DNA of 64,000 bases from Gordius sp. MW1 (Eukaryota; Nematomorpha; Gordioida; Gordea; Gordiidae). A program made the translations under genes and the position numbers. Each line of letters starts with the position of its first letter. The stretch's first letter is position 1. Shown one piece after another: positions 1 to 45,959 of this stretch. The notes under the pieces were generated by a model. That model worked only from the letters and a program-made list of their open reading frames with translations, was not told where the DNA came from and did no database searches. The stretch lies in assembly GCA_964036665.1 (NCBI GenBank), contig OZ038527.1, positions 26,019,901 to 26,083,900 of the forward strand, written 5' to 3'.

Positions 1-395
1 ATCGGATTCAGATTCATATCGCGCAAACTTATCTTTGTCCAAAAATCCGTTTCAATTTCATGGTAAAACTCAGTTTTAATTATTTTGTTTTTTGATAGTT
101 AAAAACATTTTTTGCATGTTTCAACCCTTGAGATTAAATTAAACTTTGCTGAAACCTAAAAATTTAAAAACATACAACATTTAGGTTTAGGAAAAATTTT
201 GTATCTTACAAAGTCGCTGTTATGTTATGCATCTGATATGTAAATCTGCTGTGAATTCCAAGTTAATACACGCCTATGTTATAACCAGTAAGTACGACGA
301 TTTTTAGTGCAAAATCCGATATTAAGACAAGCCTTTAGAAGGGTTGTTAATACCACATAAGAGCTGGGCTATCAGTTTCGTAAGCAAATATTTAC
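1..395. other. Probable first intron of the LRR gene; no feature recognised
   Basis: This AT-rich stretch begins with the donor on the minus strand and has no readable exon continuing the LRR protein. Nothing else is supported here. Confidence 0.5.
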
Positions 396-1251
396 AAGCT
401 AAGGATAATTCTTGGAGTTTGGGTAAGCCTGCGAAAGCCCAACGTCCTAAACCCTTTATCCCATTGTAATCGAGTAGAAGGGTGGCCAGGCGAGGGGGTG
501 AGGCTGAGGGCGGATCGAACCACCCCCTCGCATCTATGTGGGTCAGGAAGTTACGCCCCAAATTTAGCCACCTCAGGGTGCGAAGGTTGGCAAACGCCCC
601 GCCCGTCACGTGATTCAGGAGGTTGTGGGATAGGTCGAGCGCCTCTAGGGATCGCAGCCCGAGGAATAAGCCTCCGCCGCCACCCGTCAATCGCGTTAAC
701 CGGTTTTCGCTTAAACGCAGACCTACGAGGCTTTCGAGATGGTGGAACGGGGCGACTCCATCGCCCGCTGCCGCCCCTCCTTCGATTATCTTGTTGTCGG
801 ATAGGTCTAAAATTAATAAACTCCTCGGCAAAGCGGCAATTTTGAAAGACATTTCGGCTAAGGTCAGTTTTTTGAGGGCCTCGTTGGCCCCCAAATCGAG
901 CCATTTCATATTTATCCCCTGGGCGCCCGCCGCAATCAGCTGATTGGGCGGAGTCCTGCCGCCCCCTCGGCAATCGACCCTCCAAGAGTCGGAGTTTAGT
1001 TGACAATTAGTTGATGGAGATTCCACATTTAATTGCCACGTGACTCGAAGGGCCCGAATCGCCAAGTTCGCGGCGCCGGGCCTTAGGCAATCGCATTTAC
1101 AGACCCCGGCCGGACGGCATAGTTCCTCGAAGGCGGCTGCGGATGAATACAATCGCTGGACCGGTTCGTCCGCACATACCAAACGATCGGTCGATTCGAA
1201 CCAAATGATAATCAGTGCCAATATGGCCGCCGGCTTTAAGAATTTAAACAT
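396..1251 (-). CDS. Secreted leucine-rich-repeat protein, first coding exon (gene continues beyond)
   Basis: The protein starts with a clear signal peptide (MFKFLKPAAILALIIIWFES, residues 1-20, cleavage probably near CAD at 26-28). A cysteine-containing N-terminal region follows (about 45-100, with CKCDC). Then come about six leucine-rich repeats: LLILDLSDNKI, LVGLRLSENRL, LEALDLSHNLL, LRWLNLGRNFL, LATLLLDYNGI and a partial LQELSL. The consensus LxxLxLxxNxL indicates an extracellular or cell-surface binding protein of the Slit/Toll/chaoptin type; the ligand cannot be told. After codon 285 a good donor (GTAAAT at 395-390) interrupts the frame, so the reading beyond it (to 322) is intron and later exons lie to the left, probably outside the window. 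Loops between repeats are unusually Gly/Ala-rich (GGAAAGDG, TGGGGG). The exon is much more GC-rich than its surroundings. Seen: frame, signal, repeats. Inferred: splice site and secretion. Confidence 0.8.
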
Positions 1252-3195
1252 GGCCTAGCCTTACTCTTGCGGTTTCTAGACTTTTCATACAATCCTTTTT
1301 GATATTTTGCCGAATTATTGTGGGGTCGGGGGGACTTTGTTATTGAGCCTATGATATTGTCTTGCGACGAGAATGGTTAAAGTACGAATTCGTTGATGAT
1401 ACTTTCACAAAAGTGAACTATGCAATTTATAGTATCGAATTGAATTTTAGTCTATAGATAGGTTCTATTCATTCATATGTTGCCTGAATTTTTACCAGTT
1501 CCTCCATCTAGAGTATTCATTAGGCCAAAACAAATGAGGAGAATGGGGGGCGTTGATTGCATTTTTGTTTTTTCGGTCATTTATAACTTTACAACAACTA
1601 TTAATGATTCAAGGTAAAAGGGATCTTTTGCTTCTTCATTAAATCACGTATCGATTTTTTTTAATGTTTAAAGTATATTGTATACACTATCTACTTACAA
1701 ACACACATCACTAACCCTTTAACGCTCATGTCGTCATGGTAGTTTATAATAGTGACGCTCGTGGGCTGGATCGGATTTAGAGTGGGGGGGGGGGGCAAAA
1801 TGATTATAGTGATTTAAGCCATAATTAAATTTTGAATAATTGTTAGATTTTAAGGGGGTGCCACCCCCTGGCTAAGGCTTGAAAGAAATATGATCGAAAT
1901 AAAAATATGTCGAATAAATCCAAATCTCCCCATGTTTCTCCTTAGTTTAGGTTAGGGATTAGTTAAGCTTTTAGTCAAGTTCGTAATCCATCTATTGTGA
2001 TTGGACTTTAATCCCACCCCTGGAAATGTGTCGAATGTCATGATATTTTTGGAAATTAAATTTATACCTACATACCATTTCATCTGTTTTACGCATATAG
2101 TTTTGAAAATTTGCAGAAATAATACATTCTCCTTCACTTAATTTTTGGAATAGTTTTTGTAAAAAAAATTCGCAGACGATCTTTTAGAAGTTTATTAAAT
2201 AAGTTAAAGACGAAACTTTTTTTGATTTTGTTTGTTTGTTATATTATTTCTTATACTTATATGTACATAGTTAAGCTAGTGTTATATTGGTTTTTAAAGC
2301 AATTTACAGCTGTGAATTTTTGTTTGTCTCAAGTAATTAATGATTAAAAATTATTATTAACTCTATTTTGGAAGCTGTTATGATTGTAATTTTATTTCAA
2401 AATGGGTACATAAAGAAGCCGTAAATAACAAGTGATATGTGAAAGTTAACAACTTTTGTAACCTGGCATTTCTACGATAAACTTTGAAATTAAGATATAA
2501 ATCCTTATTTTAATCGCAATCATTATATTTTTTTCAATTTTTAAGGAAGTTAGATAATAATTTTTTAGGCATCCAAAAAATGATAAAGAATTTATAGATT
2601 TACATTAAGTTTATAACTTCTTAAGATGTGTTATATCTTCACCAAAAATTGAATTATTTTTGCATATATTTAGCCAAGTCTCACACATTTTGCTGCTATA
2701 TTTAACATAAACTGTAGTTCGACGCACTTTCTCTAATCTTAAATTATTCAGTTCTTCTCACTAGAGTAACATCTTTCACAATAGCATCTTCGAGTTACTG
2801 GATGTTCTTAAAAAATTATCTCGATTTTGGACCAAAAAATTATGTAACAATAACAAGTGTCGACCAGAAAGGCCCGGCCCGTTGCCCGACCTTGGCCATC
2901 CGGCCCACGGGGACAGCCGTCAAATAGATTTTCGGGCGGGCTCGGGTCGGCACCCTAACAAAAATTGGACAATCGGACTAAATGAGATTTTTCCTTATAG
3001 CATATTAATTTTGTCACCTTTTTAACCAATTGTTTAATATTTAATTATCTAAATTCTTATCACCCCTAAAAAATAAAATTTAAATGAGCACTTTTTGGGA
3101 AACATGACGAAACTACTACTACAAATTTAAACAAATCTCACCCCTGGTCGAGGAGGCTTCGGGATAAATGTTTACCCATAGCTATGCCTAATACA
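1252..3195. other. Intergenic space between divergent LRR and IMMP2L-like genes
   Basis: It separates the LRR start (minus) from the visible IMMP2L exons (plus), so it should hold both promoters and perhaps the missing 5' exons of the peptidase; I could not find an exon coding its N-terminal membrane segment or catalytic serine. It contains a decayed copy of the GGGCGTAGCC element near 1760-1880, a GC-rich GCCCG/CGGGC fragment at about 2856-2960, and a 13-bp word CTATGCAATTTAT at 1418 that recurs elsewhere. Confidence 0.5.
1760..1880. repeat. Degenerate GGGCGTAGCC-type hAT MITE (family B)
   Basis: The core, a G tract followed by CAAAATGATTA, TTTAAGCCATAATT and CCACCCCCTGGCTA, matches the interior of the intact copies near 3.7, 5.7 and 9.3 kb. 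Both terminal repeats are decayed. Confidence 0.5.
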
Positions 3196-3377
3196 AGTAC
3201 TAAAACGGCTGGGTTATGTTAGGTCGACCTTTGATTTTAGGCGATCAAACATATAAACAAACCAAAAAGATTTTTGGTCTGTTTGACTGGCTCTTTGGTC
3301 AAACATTTGGTCGGTTGATGTTAAATCAGCTAAAACCAATGGCCGACCAAACAAAACCAGCTGTTTTTACAACACTA
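3196..3377. repeat. GTCGAC-type palindromic hAT MITE (family A)
   Basis: The left arm ACGGCTGGGTTATGTTAGGT faces an inverted right arm that ends in TTTTTACAACACTA. The inner arms carry GTCGACC and inverted GGTCGAC/GGCCGAC words. The family consensus end is TAGTGTTGTAAAAACGGCTG. Confidence 0.7.
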
Positions 3378-3494
3378 CCTAATACCCACCAAATTTAGGT
3401 TTTCTCAAAAAATTTGTATGGCAGATTTGGCAAGAACCTTACGTATATATGATATGATATAAATTCACAGGATAAAATATATCTATAATTAATT

Positions 3495-7980: not shown

Positions 7981-8060
<80 letters not shown>

Positions 8061-8623
8061 TTTATTTGTTAAAAATCCGCTGACAGTAATATAATATAAA
8101 TACATGAAATATAAAAGGCAAAATGCGCCGAATAAAATAATACACTATTCGGATATATCATCATCGAGGGGATCTTCCAAAATTGGCCAAGAATCCGCGA
8201 ACGATTTAAAGTTGTACTTGGCTATAAGAATACCAAGTCTTTGTTTTAGTAAAAAGGGTACCGAATGTTTAGACGGGGGAGAACGTCTTCCAACCTCTTT
8301 AAAAAAAGCTAAGGCCTGTTTGCCAAAGGTGCCTGAACACGAAGCAACCAATGGAATAAAAATATTTGAGGATAATAGGGCTTTGTATTTATTGGTTTTC
8401 CGCCCCTCTGCAACAGCTAAAGAATCATTGTTGCAGTTAGAGGGGGCAAATAGGTCAATACATGTGAAGTCCCATTTAAGGTGAAGACCATTGCTCCATG
8501 GGACTAAAGAAGATCCATCAGGACGCATACGTCCCTCCAAGGCGGGGTCCGATGGCTCCAAGATGGATGGAATCTTTATCATAACGGTAGATATCTCATT
8601 TCTTGTAAACCAATGAGTTGACA
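7981..8623 (-). mobile_element. LINE copy 2, 3' fragment with long A-tail
   Basis: On the minus strand this fragment encodes the C-terminal endonuclease-like domain of the same LINE seen at 9.7-11.3 kb (LEPSDPALEGRMRPDG, LKWDFTCIDLFAPSN, CSGTFGKQA, LLKQRLGILIAKYNF). It ends in an uninterrupted run of 76 T on the plus strand (7981-8056), that is a poly(A) tail, which marks a recent insertion. Coding similarity fades near 8620, where a family A MITE begins, so the 5' truncation point is hidden there. The insertion is just behind the IMMP2L-like stop codon. Confidence 0.8.
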
Positions 8624-8717
8624 TAGCGTTGTTAAAACCGCTGGGTTTAATTTTTGTTTGGTCCACCTTTGGTTTTAGTCGGCTAAACAAAAGCAGACCA
8701 AACCAAGAAAAACACTA
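8624..8717. repeat. Family A hAT MITE, truncated
   Basis: TAGCGTTGTTAAAACCGCTG followed by GGTTTTAGTCGGCTAAAC gives the left arm; the right arm is reduced to AAAAACACTA. It abuts the LINE fragment. Confidence 0.6.
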
Positions 8718-8734
8718 AATTAACATGTTTGACG

Positions 8735-9643
8735 TAGAGAACTGCACGGGTGGTCGGGTCGGGTTCGGGTTGAAATTTTAATATGCTTTCGGGTCGGGTC
8801 GGGTTGGATTTAAAGTGTCGGGTGAAGGGTTATGAATCTTACATTGCAGAGTACGCGGGACATATCTTTAAAAATAATGCTATTATGTATAATATTTTTT
8901 AATTAATATCGAAATGTATAATTGACGATCATTCATTAAGTTAATTAAATTCCCTTTTGTTTTTAAAAATCTGATTGTTTTAATTTGAATGCAAATTAAA
9001 ATTTGACTGGTGAAAGGTAAAATATATCAATAAAATAATATTTTTTAATTGTATTTAAATAGTGTGAAGTTGTAGTTCATTATTAATTTAAACTACATAA
9101 ATATATATTTATAAAACAAATAAGATTATGTTTAAATTTATTAAATGATTCATTTGCAAAACTCTATATTTGAAATTGAATGTGACCAGATACTGTATGC
9201 AAACATTTATATATATCTCTATTATAAATCATTAAAATAAATTTAGTAATCAAAATCTGTGGAATCAATTAGTTTCATAAATCGCACTTTAATTTGTCGA
9301 TTAAATTTTAAACATCCTCATGGGAGTAGCCAGGAAATTGAAATTAGAGGGGGGGGCAATAATAAGGGACCATTTTTTAAATTTTAGCCATAATTTGATA
9401 AAATATCTAAGATTTTTTGGATTTAGAGGGGGGCATCCGCCTGTCTCTGCCACCCCCTAGCTACGCCCATGCACACCGCAATTTTTCTTAGTCTCGCGTT
9501 GGATACCAAAATTTGAAACACGTTCGAAAGGGATTCGGCTAAAATTTTTTAACGCTTTCGTGTCGGGTTCCGGTTGAAAATTTTAAAATGCATTCGGGTC
9601 GGGTCGGGTTCGGGTTGAAAAAAAGTGACTTTACAGTTCTCTA
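8735..9643. mobile_element. Non-autonomous hAT-like element with GGGTC/GGGTT repeats (family E)
   Basis: The ends TAGAGAACTGCACGGG and the inverse of ACTTTACAGTTCTCTA are inverted repeats. Flanks GTTTGACG and GTTTGAAG match at 7 of 8. Pentamer-like runs GGGTCGGGTCGGGTTCGGGT lie inside both ends. Its right half holds a family B MITE (9319-9471) and became part of a 430-bp direct repeat when LINE copy 1 inserted. Confidence 0.75.
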
Positions 9644-9674
9644 GTTTGAAGGGGAAGGTTAAATTGTACAATTT
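9245..9674. repeat. 430-bp direct repeat, left copy, flanking LINE copy 1
   Basis: It repeats almost exactly at 11278-11707, with only a handful of substitutions and G-run differences. It starts AGTAATCAAAATCTGTGG and ends GTTAAATTGTACAATTT, immediately followed by the LINE A-tail (T tract). The LINE sits exactly between the two copies, so this looks like a target-site duplication of unusual length. Confidence 0.85.
9319..9471. repeat. Family B hAT MITE nested in the family E element
   Basis: The ends are CATGGGAGTAGCCAGG and CTAGCTACGCCCATG. The flanks do not show a duplication, so decay or loss has occurred. The same MITE appears again at 11352-11503 because of the 430-bp duplication. Confidence 0.8.
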
Positions 9675-11277
9675 TTTTTTTTATGTATATATTGTTTATT
9701 TGAACGTAAGAACATTATAAAAACGAAGTGTCAAAATTCGAAAAATATAGCGGATGTAAAACAAAATAAAAATATTATGATTCAAAAATGTCGCATGTGT
9801 CATCTTGTAAAAGTGGCCAACTGTCGGCCAGGGATTTAAAATTGTACTTAGCTATAAAAATACCAATTTTTTGTTTAAGTAAAAAATTAGTGGAATATTT
9901 AGAGGGCGGGCAGCGACGGCTGATTTCTTTAAAAAGCTTAAAGGCGGCCGGACCAAAAGTCCCAGAACACGAGGCAACGATAGGGGTAAAGATATTAGAT
10001 GGTAGGAGGGCCTGGTATTTAACCGTTTTGCGGTGTTCGGCGAGAGTCAGAGCGTTGTAGTTTTGGTTAGAGGGGGCGAAAATGTCTATGCAGGTGAAAT
10101 CCCATTTAAGGGGTAGACCATTTTGCCAAGGGATAAGGGTAGAGCCGTCTGGTCGCATCCTTCCCTCCAACGAAGGGTCTGACGGCTCTAAAACGGAGGG
10201 AATGTTGGCTTTTTTAAAAGCGGCTTGGATAAGGCTATTCACCTTTTCGTGCCTTATGTGTTTAAATTTATTGTAAAGGCAGTGTAGGGGATGCCTTGCA
10301 TAAATGTCTATGCTCTGGGAGCAGTTGCGGCAGGAATATTCCTTTGAATAGGGAATTCCTAGTCTGAGGGCGATGGCGTATGCTAGCTCTGGGTCCTCCA
10401 ACATCAATCCAGAAAGTGAGCTAGGATAAGCTTCAAGCCACTCGTGACCCGATCCGTCAAAAACTAAAGATTTAAGGTTGAAGGGCTGGCGGGCGTCGCA
10501 ACTCGATAAGAGGTAATCAACGGAGCGCGATACGAGGCCAGCATCCCAATCCTTTTGTCTAGAGGTTATGGGGAAGGGGGTCCCTGGGTTGACGTTGGCT
10601 GACCAGACGTCTAGGGCTTCTACAAACGACGGATCCTCATTTGTTGTGATTAAACGGTCGATCAATCCTTGGGCAGATTTATAAGAAGAGATAAACGCAG
10701 CTAACGAAATTGAGGTAGCTGGGCGTATGCCCAAGCCGCCAGCTTTAGTAGGTAAAGAGGCTTGGAGCCACGAGGAAGTGCTGAATTTGATATTAAGAAT
10801 TGCTTCTAAAGTATTCTTCATGAAGCTATCGTAGCTTTTTAAAATCTCGGGCAATAAAAAGGCTGAAGAGGACCGGAAGCAGTGTTGAATTTTTGAGATG
10901 TTGAAATAGTTTTTAATGATATAAAATGCGTGGTGTTTGGGGAGGGTATTAAGAATATCCATCTTCGATGTAAGAGTTGATAAGTGGCTATGTAAAAATT
11001 CTTTTAAGGCGATTTGCCCACTATTGGAGAGCCTAGATGAGTAAAACTCATCAATTCAACTTTTAAAAAGGGCTTAAAGATGGGAAATTTGTTGGTATCC
11101 GGGCACTGATATATCTCGCATTTAGAGATATTCAATCTCAAGTTTAGGGAGGTTTCATAATGTTGGATTAAAAGAATGGCCTTGGAAATTTCTTCAGGAG
11201 GGCCGCATAAGGTAGCATCGTCCAGGTACCAGACGTTTAATGATAATGAGCATTGGTTTGAGAGGGATTCAGTTAAA
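9675..11277 (-). mobile_element. 5'-truncated LINE (copy 1) with RT tail and PD-(D/E)XK-like endonuclease domain
   Basis: The minus strand reads, from 11277 down: the end of a reverse transcriptase with the catalytic box VWYLDDATL (near 11220), one frameshift near 11030, then a long open frame 10962-9775. That frame contains AGGLGIRPATSISLAAF, a Cys/His cluster (CRNC...HPLHC), and a restriction-enzyme-like endonuclease signature RPDGSTLIPW...WDFTCIDIFAP...KYQ, as in LINEs that encode a C-terminal nuclease. A 3' untranslated part and an A-tail (T tract at 9672-9682) end it. The 5' part of RT is missing. Two further copies lie at 8.1 kb and 43.6-48.3 kb. Confidence 0.85.
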
Positions 11278-11707
11278 AGTAATCAAAATCTGTGGAATCA
11301 ATTAGTTTCATAAATCGCACTTTAATTTGTCGATTAAATTTTAAACATCCTCATGGAAGTAGCCAGGAAATTGAAATTAGAGGGGGGGCAATAATAAGGG
11401 ACCATTTTTTAAATTTTAGCCATAATTTGATAAAATATCTAAGATTTTTTGGATTTAAAGGGGGGCATCCGCCTGTCTCTGCCACCCCCTAGCTACGCCC
11501 ATGCACACCGCAATTTTTCTTAGTCTCGCGTTGGATACCAAAATTTGAAACACGTTCGAAAGGGATTCGTCTAAAATTTTTTAAAGCTTTCGTGTCGGGT
11601 TCCGGTTGAAAATTTTTACAATGCATTCGGGTCGGGTCGGGTTCGGGTTGAAAAAAAGTGACTTTACAGTTCTCTAGTTTGAAGGGGAAGGTTAAATTGT
11701 ACAATTT
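11278..11707. repeat. 430-bp direct repeat, right copy
   Basis: It is the partner of 9245-9674. It includes a second copy of the family B MITE at 11352-11503 and the right end of the family E element (GTGACTTTACAGTTCTCTAG). Confidence 0.85.
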
Positions 11708-11952: not shown

Positions 11953-12136
11953 CATGGGCGTAGCCAGGTTTTGGATTGGGGGGGGGGGAGGGGCGACACG
12001 TTCAAAAGTTTAATTGGGGGGGGGGGGCAAAACATAAAATTTTTAAGGCTTTTTGCATGTAAATTTTTTTTTCTCGCCATTTAAGGAAAAGGCGGCCGCC
12101 CCCCCCCCCTGCCCCCCCCCCCTGGCTACGCCCATG
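11953..12136. repeat. Family B hAT MITE with clear duplication
   Basis: The ends CATGGGCGTAGCCAGG and CCTGGCTACGCCCATG are perfect inverted repeats. Flanks GTCATTAA and GTCATTAT match at 7 of 8. The G tracts on the left and C tracts on the right could pair into a long hairpin. Confidence 0.9.
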
Positions 12137-44047: not shown

Positions 44048-45959
44048 TCAGCCCGTTTTAATTTTATTCCGAATCCATACTGGATGTCCAACATTAAATT
44101 CCCTATAAAACGCTTTTCGGTCATGGTAGCTCTTTTGTTTAGCTAATCTATCCTTCCACTTTTCTTTCGGATCTGGTCGAATAAGGTTCAACGCTGTCCT
44201 TACTCTTCTTTCCAACAACAATTCCGCCGGAGCTTTACCCGTGGTTGCCTGAGGTGTATTCCTGTATGTCATAGTTGAAGGCATAATTCTTTCTCTTCCC
44301 CTGATTTTCTTGCTGCCCAGTATCTTGATTTTAGCGTTCGAATCATTCTCTCAGCTAATCCATTTGTTTTGGGGTGGTATGGAGTTGATGTTACGTGCTT
44401 AATGTTGTTGTTGTCACAAAATTTTGTGAATTCTTCACCGATAGATTGTGGTCCATCATGATACTATTGCAAGGGAATACCTAACCTGCAAAACCAATTT
44501 CGTAATTGCCTCACAATTTGTCGTCCTATAATCGACGATAGTGTGGCTACCTCCACCCATTTCGATAATGCATCAATTAAAACCAACCAATAATTTCCTT
44601 CGACAGGTCCGGCAATATCTATGTGGACTCGATCCCAAGGACGGTCAGGTACGGACCAAGAATATAAGGGAACTTCTTGTTCAGCTTGTCGGCCTTCTTG
44701 ACAACCGTCACATTCCTTTACAAACAAATAAATACTCTTGTCCATTTCCGGCCACCAAACATAATATCGGGCTAAATTAAGCATTCCTGTAATCCCGGGG
44801 TGTCCTTGGTGTAATATTTTTAAAACCGACTTTTGTAAGCCCCTCGGTATTATTAACCGATTGCCACGCAATAATAATCCATCTTCAAATGACAGTTCCT
44901 CCCTTCGATTGTAGTACGTTTTCATGTCAAAACGGCATTTTTTTAAATTTGACCGCCATTCTCGGTTGACCGCTAAAATTAATTCACGACAAAAAGGATC
45001 TTTTAGCATTTCATAATCTAACTTTAATTCATCTAACATGAGTAGTCCTGCGTGATTGATCTGATCCGTATCAAGGTATTTTGGATCTTGCAGTCTCGAC
45101 AATGCATCAGCGCATTGATTGTTCTTTCCTGATCGGTATTTTATGTCGTATTGATATTCATTTAAAAATAAAGCCCACCGAATTAATCTATTATTGATCA
45201 CTTTCGGTGAATCCCGATGATTTCCGAATAATCTTCTAGAGATTTGTGGTCCGTCAGCAATACAAATTTTCGACCACGTACGTATTGATCGAATTTGTGA
45301 ACACCGAACACAATGGCTCGCGCTTCCCGATCAATTGTAGAGTATCGTTTTTCGGACTCGCTTAACGTCCTGGATGCCTACGCAATAGCTCCTTCGGACC
45401 CGTCTTCATATAAGTGTGATAGTACAGCACCTACACCAGTTTCAGAAGCATCTAACGCTAGGTCGGCAATGAGGTTGAATACGGTACCAATGTATTGGAC
45501 GTTGAAAGCATCAGTTTAACATCGTTAAAAATCTTCTGCTCTTTAGTCGTCCATTTCCAACCGGTGGTCATTTTCATTTACCCCTGTAACTATAATAATG
45601 TCTAGATCTAGAAGTACGCCGCTATGGGGAATCCCATCTAATAATTCCTCCATATAAAGTTGGAATAAATTTGGTGCTATCGAAAGTCCAAATGGAAGAC
45701 TTTTATATCGATAATAACCTAAATGTGTTGCGATAGTGAGATACTGTCGCAACTTTTCTTCGACCTTCATCTGAAGATAGGCATCACGTAAGTCAATTAC
45801 TGTATATTTCTGCCCTCCTGCGATCTTCAGAATTATATCGTCAAATGTCGGAAGTAGATAGTTGTTTAAAGTTAGGAAGGGATTGATAGTAACTCGAAAA
45901 TCGCCGCAGATTCTAATGGAATTATTTGATTTAATACATTTACTATTGGAGTTGCCCAT
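44048..45959 (-). pseudogene. pol: Gypsy pol remnant of the short-LTR element
   Basis: Reverse transcriptase is readable at 45959-45543 (RICGDFRVTINP, YRYKSLPFGLS), but where the YxDD active site is expected the sequence is LLDLDIII, so the catalytic motif is damaged. Then RNase H end and integrase at 45201-44464 (CADALSRLQ, zinc finger HQGHPG...CDGCQ, core start RVHIDIAGP), and its tail at 44284-44048 (SYHDRKAFYREF). Frameshifts separate the parts. Described only. Confidence 0.8.

Follow-up and report, generated by a model that had tools for sequence, protein, structure and literature searches.

Long target-site duplications, very probably made on insertion, at a minority of copies of a putative R2-like LINE in Gordius sp.

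A 5'-truncated LINE in the genome of Gordius sp. MW1 is enclosed by 430-bp direct repeats, which very probably represent a target-site duplication (TSD) that arose in the same event as the insertion of the element. A very long TSD generated by target-primed reverse transcription had been the main reading of an initial annotation of this DNA, and it is supported here, against a local duplication, by four further copies of the LINE with precise flanking repeats, and also by the fact that the repeats at two of them (L019 and L028) were reported by a genome search only around their own LINE. Long TSDs are not a constant feature of the family, being carried by only 5 of the 31 insertions that were compared. 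The window referred to throughout is the whole stretch of DNA analysed, 64,000 nucleotides at C1:26019901-26083900 in a genome of 212 Mb and 12 contigs, and positions without a contig name are those of the window.

The window locus and its native context

The two repeat copies, at 9245-9674 (left) and 11278-11707 (right), are 430 bp each and align with 424 matches, five substitutions and two one-base gap columns (98.4% identity), in agreement with the initial annotation, which had described direct repeats about 98% identical that exactly enclose the truncated LINE; both joints proved to be exact. The LINE lies on the reverse strand, the left copy being on its 3' side and the right copy on its 5' side. 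Its A-tail, seen as a run of T on the forward strand, occupies 9672-9682 and overlaps the left copy by three bases, which makes the last three bases of that copy ambiguous. The body of the element (9683-11277) corresponds to positions 1793-3386 of a reference copy of about 3.4 kb (L009), at 99.2% identity, and its truncated 5' end at 11277 adjoins the right copy at 11278 with zero bases between them. Within the body, a 426-aa open frame at 9778-11055 (reverse strand) encodes the C-terminal portion of the LINE protein, including a CCHC-like knuckle and endonuclease motifs, as assigned by alignment to the 957-aa protein of another copy (L027), on which the motifs were located. The reading frame is broken 5' of this frame, where a 92-aa frame is found at 11004-11282.

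An interspersed repeat, here called R, was delimited at 8754-9645 by paralogue alignments, and the duplication reaches into its interior, the target of the insertion being the edge of R. R crosses position 9245 far in seven of eight paralogues and by only 9 bp in the eighth, and the stretch linking the right copy to the DNA left of 9245 aligns unbroken to two loci (L031 and L036). Because 9245 lies inside R and the sequence continues across it in the paralogues, the left copy appears to be the native one and the right copy the extra one, cut off at the LINE; the window paralogues test the boundary at 9245 only, the joint 9674/11708 lying outside R. The 29 bp at 9646-9674, the last three of which are common with the tail, are outside R and yet present in both copies, and for that reason two independent insertions of R, one to each side of the LINE, are rejected.

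Several other features accompany the locus. By eye, the stretches at 9321-9472 and 11955-12136 have CATGGGCGTAGCCAGG-like ends, with the inverted form opposite, and are probably MITE-like repeats, one of which lies inside the TSD. A fragment of a related LINE at 8148-8714 (reverse strand) has 71% protein identity to the endonuclease part of the window LINE and a long A-run on its 3' side near 8054. Farther away, a frame with an integrase zinc-binding domain at 44467-45330 (reverse strand) is probably part of an LTR retrotransposon, frames at 35.6-39.5 kb on the same strand resemble it by eye, and a 310-aa frame at 325-1254 (reverse strand) contains leucine-rich repeats (Pfam LRR_8).

The LINE family and its protein

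More than 40 places in the genome, among the matches listed, are related to the window LINE. Judging from their sequences, family copies with a common 5' end would be about 3.4 kb long, with a 5' leader of about 450 bases. In 32 copies the aligned end of the LINE is directly followed by an A run of 0-23 bases, and the base after the run is T in 26 of the 32, by a counting method that excludes A at that position. Two groups of copies deserve mention on their own account. Eight copies of 96% identity and with the same query start, at C7:128157-217999 and C7:20820892-20966100, near both ends of contig 7, are a subtelomeric cluster. Copies L024 (C11, a 76-kb contig) and L025 (C6) share their flanks near the LINE and are one insertion, present twice as either a segmental duplicate or an assembly duplicate.

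The open frame of 957 aa in L027 is a single long ORF that encodes a reverse transcriptase of the LINE type (Pfam RVT_1, E 7e-19), and the Pfam search of this ORF gave nothing convincing besides RVT_1, including no apurinic-type endonuclease domain, such as marks the APE LINEs (L1, L2, RTE and others). The closest solved structures are R2 proteins, with similarity in the reverse transcriptase region only (E 0.004 for the sequence alone, 2.5e-4 with a profile). Downstream of the reverse transcriptase there is a CCHC-like knuckle, CX2CX9HX3C, at residue 773, whose spacing departs slightly from the CX2-3CX7-8HX4C given for LINEs with a restriction-like endonuclease (RLE) in PMC5678591. It is followed by PD at 833-834, D850 and KTVKY at 874, and these correspond, at the level of sequence motifs, to the RLE pattern of PD...D and KX2KY, described in the same source as a PD-(D/E)XK variant whose catalytic lysine sits in a displaced KX2KY (PMC5678591). 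Diverged relatives (58-71% identity) retain RPDG, WDFT/WDYT and KX2KY wherever these are covered, RPDG being kept in both relatives that cover it and KX2KY in both that reach it. The 957-aa protein has no GXW motif anywhere, and a Cys/His cluster at residues 8-33 matches no Pfam domain. On its motifs, the element may be called an RLE-type LINE of the R2 group in the broad sense. The HERO clade is described as including many non-specific elements (PMC4640811).

Flanking repeats and empty sites across the family

The comparison included 31 distinct insertions with both ends read, a sample that favours the copies most similar to the window copy; L025 was dropped as the duplicate of L024, and L052 because its sequence did not extend to the 5' end. 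The initial annotation had proposed a search of other copies and a measurement of their flanking repeats, and this search revealed four more long duplications, all with lengths other than that of the window. Precise flanking repeats whose limits coincide with the two ends of the LINE are present at 5/31 insertions (interval 5-34%), or 4/30 when the window, selected on account of its repeat, is left aside. Their lengths are 430 bp in the window, approximately 331 bp at L019 (320-331 bp, the range coming from an A-run and a 5-bp microhomology), 67 bp at L028, 48 bp at L026, where 6 bp are common with the LINE, and 36 bp at L020, a copy with almost no A-tail (two A's), unlike most others. All five of these copies are truncated and none of the six that extend to the common 5' end (L014, L015, L016, L021, L022 and L027) has a long TSD, numbers too few to be given weight.

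A chance origin of these repeats could be rejected by a swapped-flank control, in which the 5' flank of each of 30 sites was paired with the 3' flank of another copy. Only 5 of the 870 mispairings gave a hit, all of 20-22 bp and none of at least 30 bp, vs. 5 of the 30 own pairs, all of at least 36 bp. In addition, the duplications at L019 (325 bp searched) and L028 (67 bp) were each reported at only two places in the 212-Mb genome, on either side of the LINE, by a search that skips very common words. A scan for A-tailed elements between direct repeats, covering the window and the loci longer than 4 kb other than L025, returned 10 rows, of which four are this LINE (the window, L019, L028 and L026) and six are, by eye, tandem or low-level repeats; L020 was missed owing to its near lack of an A-tail. 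The 527-bp direct repeats at L017 are LTR-like by eye and were discarded as a TSD of the LINE.

Tandem repeats are common in this genome and occur also near some copies of the LINE, so the 430-bp repeat could have existed as a tandem duplication at whose junction the LINE landed exactly. This is extremely improbable, given that five independent insertions, each with a repeat of another length, must all have struck the exact junction and that the repeats of L019 and L028 are found only around their LINE.

The remaining 26 insertions have no flanking repeat of at least 20 bp, duplications being detectable to about 6.4 kb at 20 of the 31 insertions and to only about 0.6-1.3 kb at the other 11. 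Near the junctions, short matches (7-10 bp) and some weak ones with gaps are indistinguishable from chance, and no peak at 5-20 bp such as that of L1 or L2 was seen, TSDs shorter than about 10 bp being inseparable from chance unless an empty site is at hand. Such sites, all of them paralogues rather than orthologous loci, were seen for 7 of these 26 insertions, five by alignment within the set of loci collected and two by rows of matches from a genome-wide search made for L016 and L043 only. In the five alignments, the joints are within about 12 bp of blunt: up to 7 bp are lost at L010, whose 5' joint also has some additional bases, 0-2 bp at L013, roughly 4-12 bp at L018, which has a mixed A-rich tail, and about 5-7 bp at L022, while 3-4 bp are duplicated at L027. 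For L016, the joined query of 529 bases is covered in full by 26 of 40 scored candidates, at lengths of 508-539 bases, and for L043 there are contiguous matches from 8 bases shorter to 41 bases longer than the query stretch. The 19 insertions at which no empty site was seen may include large deletions. The initial annotation had regarded duplications shorter than 30 bp at other copies as evidence against a long TSD. Most other copies are indeed without a TSD of at least 20 bp and L027 has one of 3-4 bp; we read this as placing the 430-bp repeat at the extreme of a minority mode, and not as a sign that the repeat is something else. From these sequences, near-blunt joining looks to be the usual outcome, and the duplications look like a separate, long class.

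Age, mechanism and comparison with known systems

The five TSD pairs have 14 substitutions in 912 bp, i.e., 1.5% (interval 0.8-2.6%), one of the five differences at L019 being in the A-run at the edge of the TSD, and the LINE copies differ from each other by a mean of 1.1% (435 pairs of 30 copies, 3'-terminal 1.1 kb). The similarity of both values suggests a similar age for repeats and elements, which fits a simultaneous origin. In the window pair, when polarised by the eight paralogues, all seven differences (five substitutions and two indels) are derived in the right copy and the left copy carries the majority state of the paralogues at every one, the derived state being found also in one or two paralogues at three of the seven sites. 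A two-sided sign test gives 1/64 for the seven differences and 1/16 for the five substitutions, post hoc and at one locus. Such one-sidedness is not predicted by simple equal ageing. The TSDs of L019 and L028 have no third copy in the genome by which their differences could be polarised.

The one-sided differences bear on two other explanations. A blunt insertion of the LINE might have been followed by a local duplication that copied one flank across the element, and a separate copying event of this kind would also account for differences that fall on one side, just as the near-blunt joints of family insertions with alignable empty sites and no long TSD would suit its first step. We regard it as very unlikely, as the copying must have stopped exactly at both LINE ends five times, and the divergences of LINE and repeats are similar. 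The second is that the element has two outcomes, a near-blunt one and a far one in which the reverse transcriptase, once the RNA template has been completed or abandoned, switches to the displaced strand of the target and copies as many as 430 of its bases. The 5'-side copy would then be marked by errors, as the seven one-sided differences would suggest; an error-prone polymerase that copied the displaced strand would fit them, though the error load in 430 bases seems high, and we consider this outcome rather improbable.

Under the preferred reading, that of a TSD formed during the insertion, target-primed reverse transcription would start at a nick in an A/T-rich site and would end early, leaving the element truncated at its 5' end. 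The second strand would be opened not opposite the first nick but about 430 bases downstream, the strands between the nicks would separate, the end of the cDNA would join the far 3' overhang, and both overhangs would be filled in. For the family, the second opening seems to be usually within about 12 bp of the first, with a blunt joint, a small loss or a gain of 3-4 bp as the result, and we infer that at 5 of the 31 insertions, about one in six, it was made 36-430 bp downstream. The standard model has three outcomes: a duplication if the second nick is downstream of the first, a blunt joint if the two are in line, and a deletion if the second is upstream (PMC2881922). The data fit this model, with a second opening near zero in most of the events that can be judged and 36-430 bp downstream in a minority.

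The sequences themselves show exact repeats that recur at different lengths, two of them with no reported place elsewhere, and a similar divergence of LINE and repeats; the positions of the nicks, the strand displacement, the fill-in and the origin of the distant nick, host-made or stray rather than programmed, are what we infer. In a variant compatible with the TSD reading, the duplication belongs to the insertion event and the element makes no second cut, the distant break being stray, host-made or linked to replication, or else the cDNA being joined to the other sister chromatid; taken together, these possibilities have a chance just short of even. The variable TSD lengths and the near-blunt joints elsewhere favour a stray or host-made break, as does the rise of human L1 TSDs to kilobases in cells that lack nucleotide excision repair (PMC5223499), whereas R9, an endonuclease LINE of bdelloid rotifers, is cited with cuts 126 bp apart (PMC6895275). 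We lean toward an occasional distant nick, possibly made by the host, and, if the repeats are a TSD, this and a cut by the element itself are about evenly balanced.

The step in which LINEs open the second strand and copy it is described as poorly understood (PMC6895275; PMC2881922), and a natural family in which the second opening lies either nearly opposite the first or hundreds of bases away from it offers many datable events on the control of this distance. Long duplications may also provide homologous ends for a later clean loss of the LINE, in addition to duplicated host DNA, a point already made for L1 (PMC5223499).

R9 is reportedly specific for rDNA and has an exceptionally long TSD. 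It shares with the Gordius LINE the broad endonuclease type (R2-type RLE) and cuts that are far apart. In contrast to R9, with its rDNA target and 126-bp TSD, the Gordius LINE is found at dispersed sites with differing flanks, no rRNA family match occurs in the window, and its TSDs are of 36-430 bp, with none of at least 20 bp in 26/31 insertions. R2 of Drosophila and Blattella is described as having blunt or deleted 5' junctions, microhomologies and, in truncated copies, variable positions of the second cut (PMC2718515; PMC7650587). These features are likenesses to the Gordius LINE. The differences are that R2 is specific for a 28S site and that the passages available from these sources mention deletions and a few duplications, none of hundreds of bp.

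L1 and ZfL2-2 are APE-type LINEs. The usual TSDs are short, about 15 bp for L1 and 5 bp for ZfL2-1 (PMC4245944), and both L1 and ZfL2-2 resemble the Gordius LINE in having occasional long ones. In wild-type DT40 cells, one of 25 ZfL2-2 insertions had a TSD of 1228 bp (PMC2666801), and in cells deficient in nucleotide excision repair the TSDs of L1 ranged from 5 bp to 5.3 kb, for which the authors propose the use of a distal, unrelated nick (PMC5223499). TSDs of L1 longer than 100 bp never exceeded 10% of the events in HeLa cells and made up three of nine in complemented cells (PMC5223499). The difference is that these are assays in cell lines, while the Gordius data are a genome's own insertions. 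Our literature search, mostly of open-access papers seen in part, found no earlier natural, dispersed RLE-type family with near-blunt joints in general and a sizeable minority of 36-430 bp TSDs. Long TSDs as such are already known, from R9 and from L1 and ZfL2-2 in cultured cells, and what appears to be new here is their range of 36-430 bp in one natural, dispersed family of RLE-type LINEs in which near-blunt joints are the rule.
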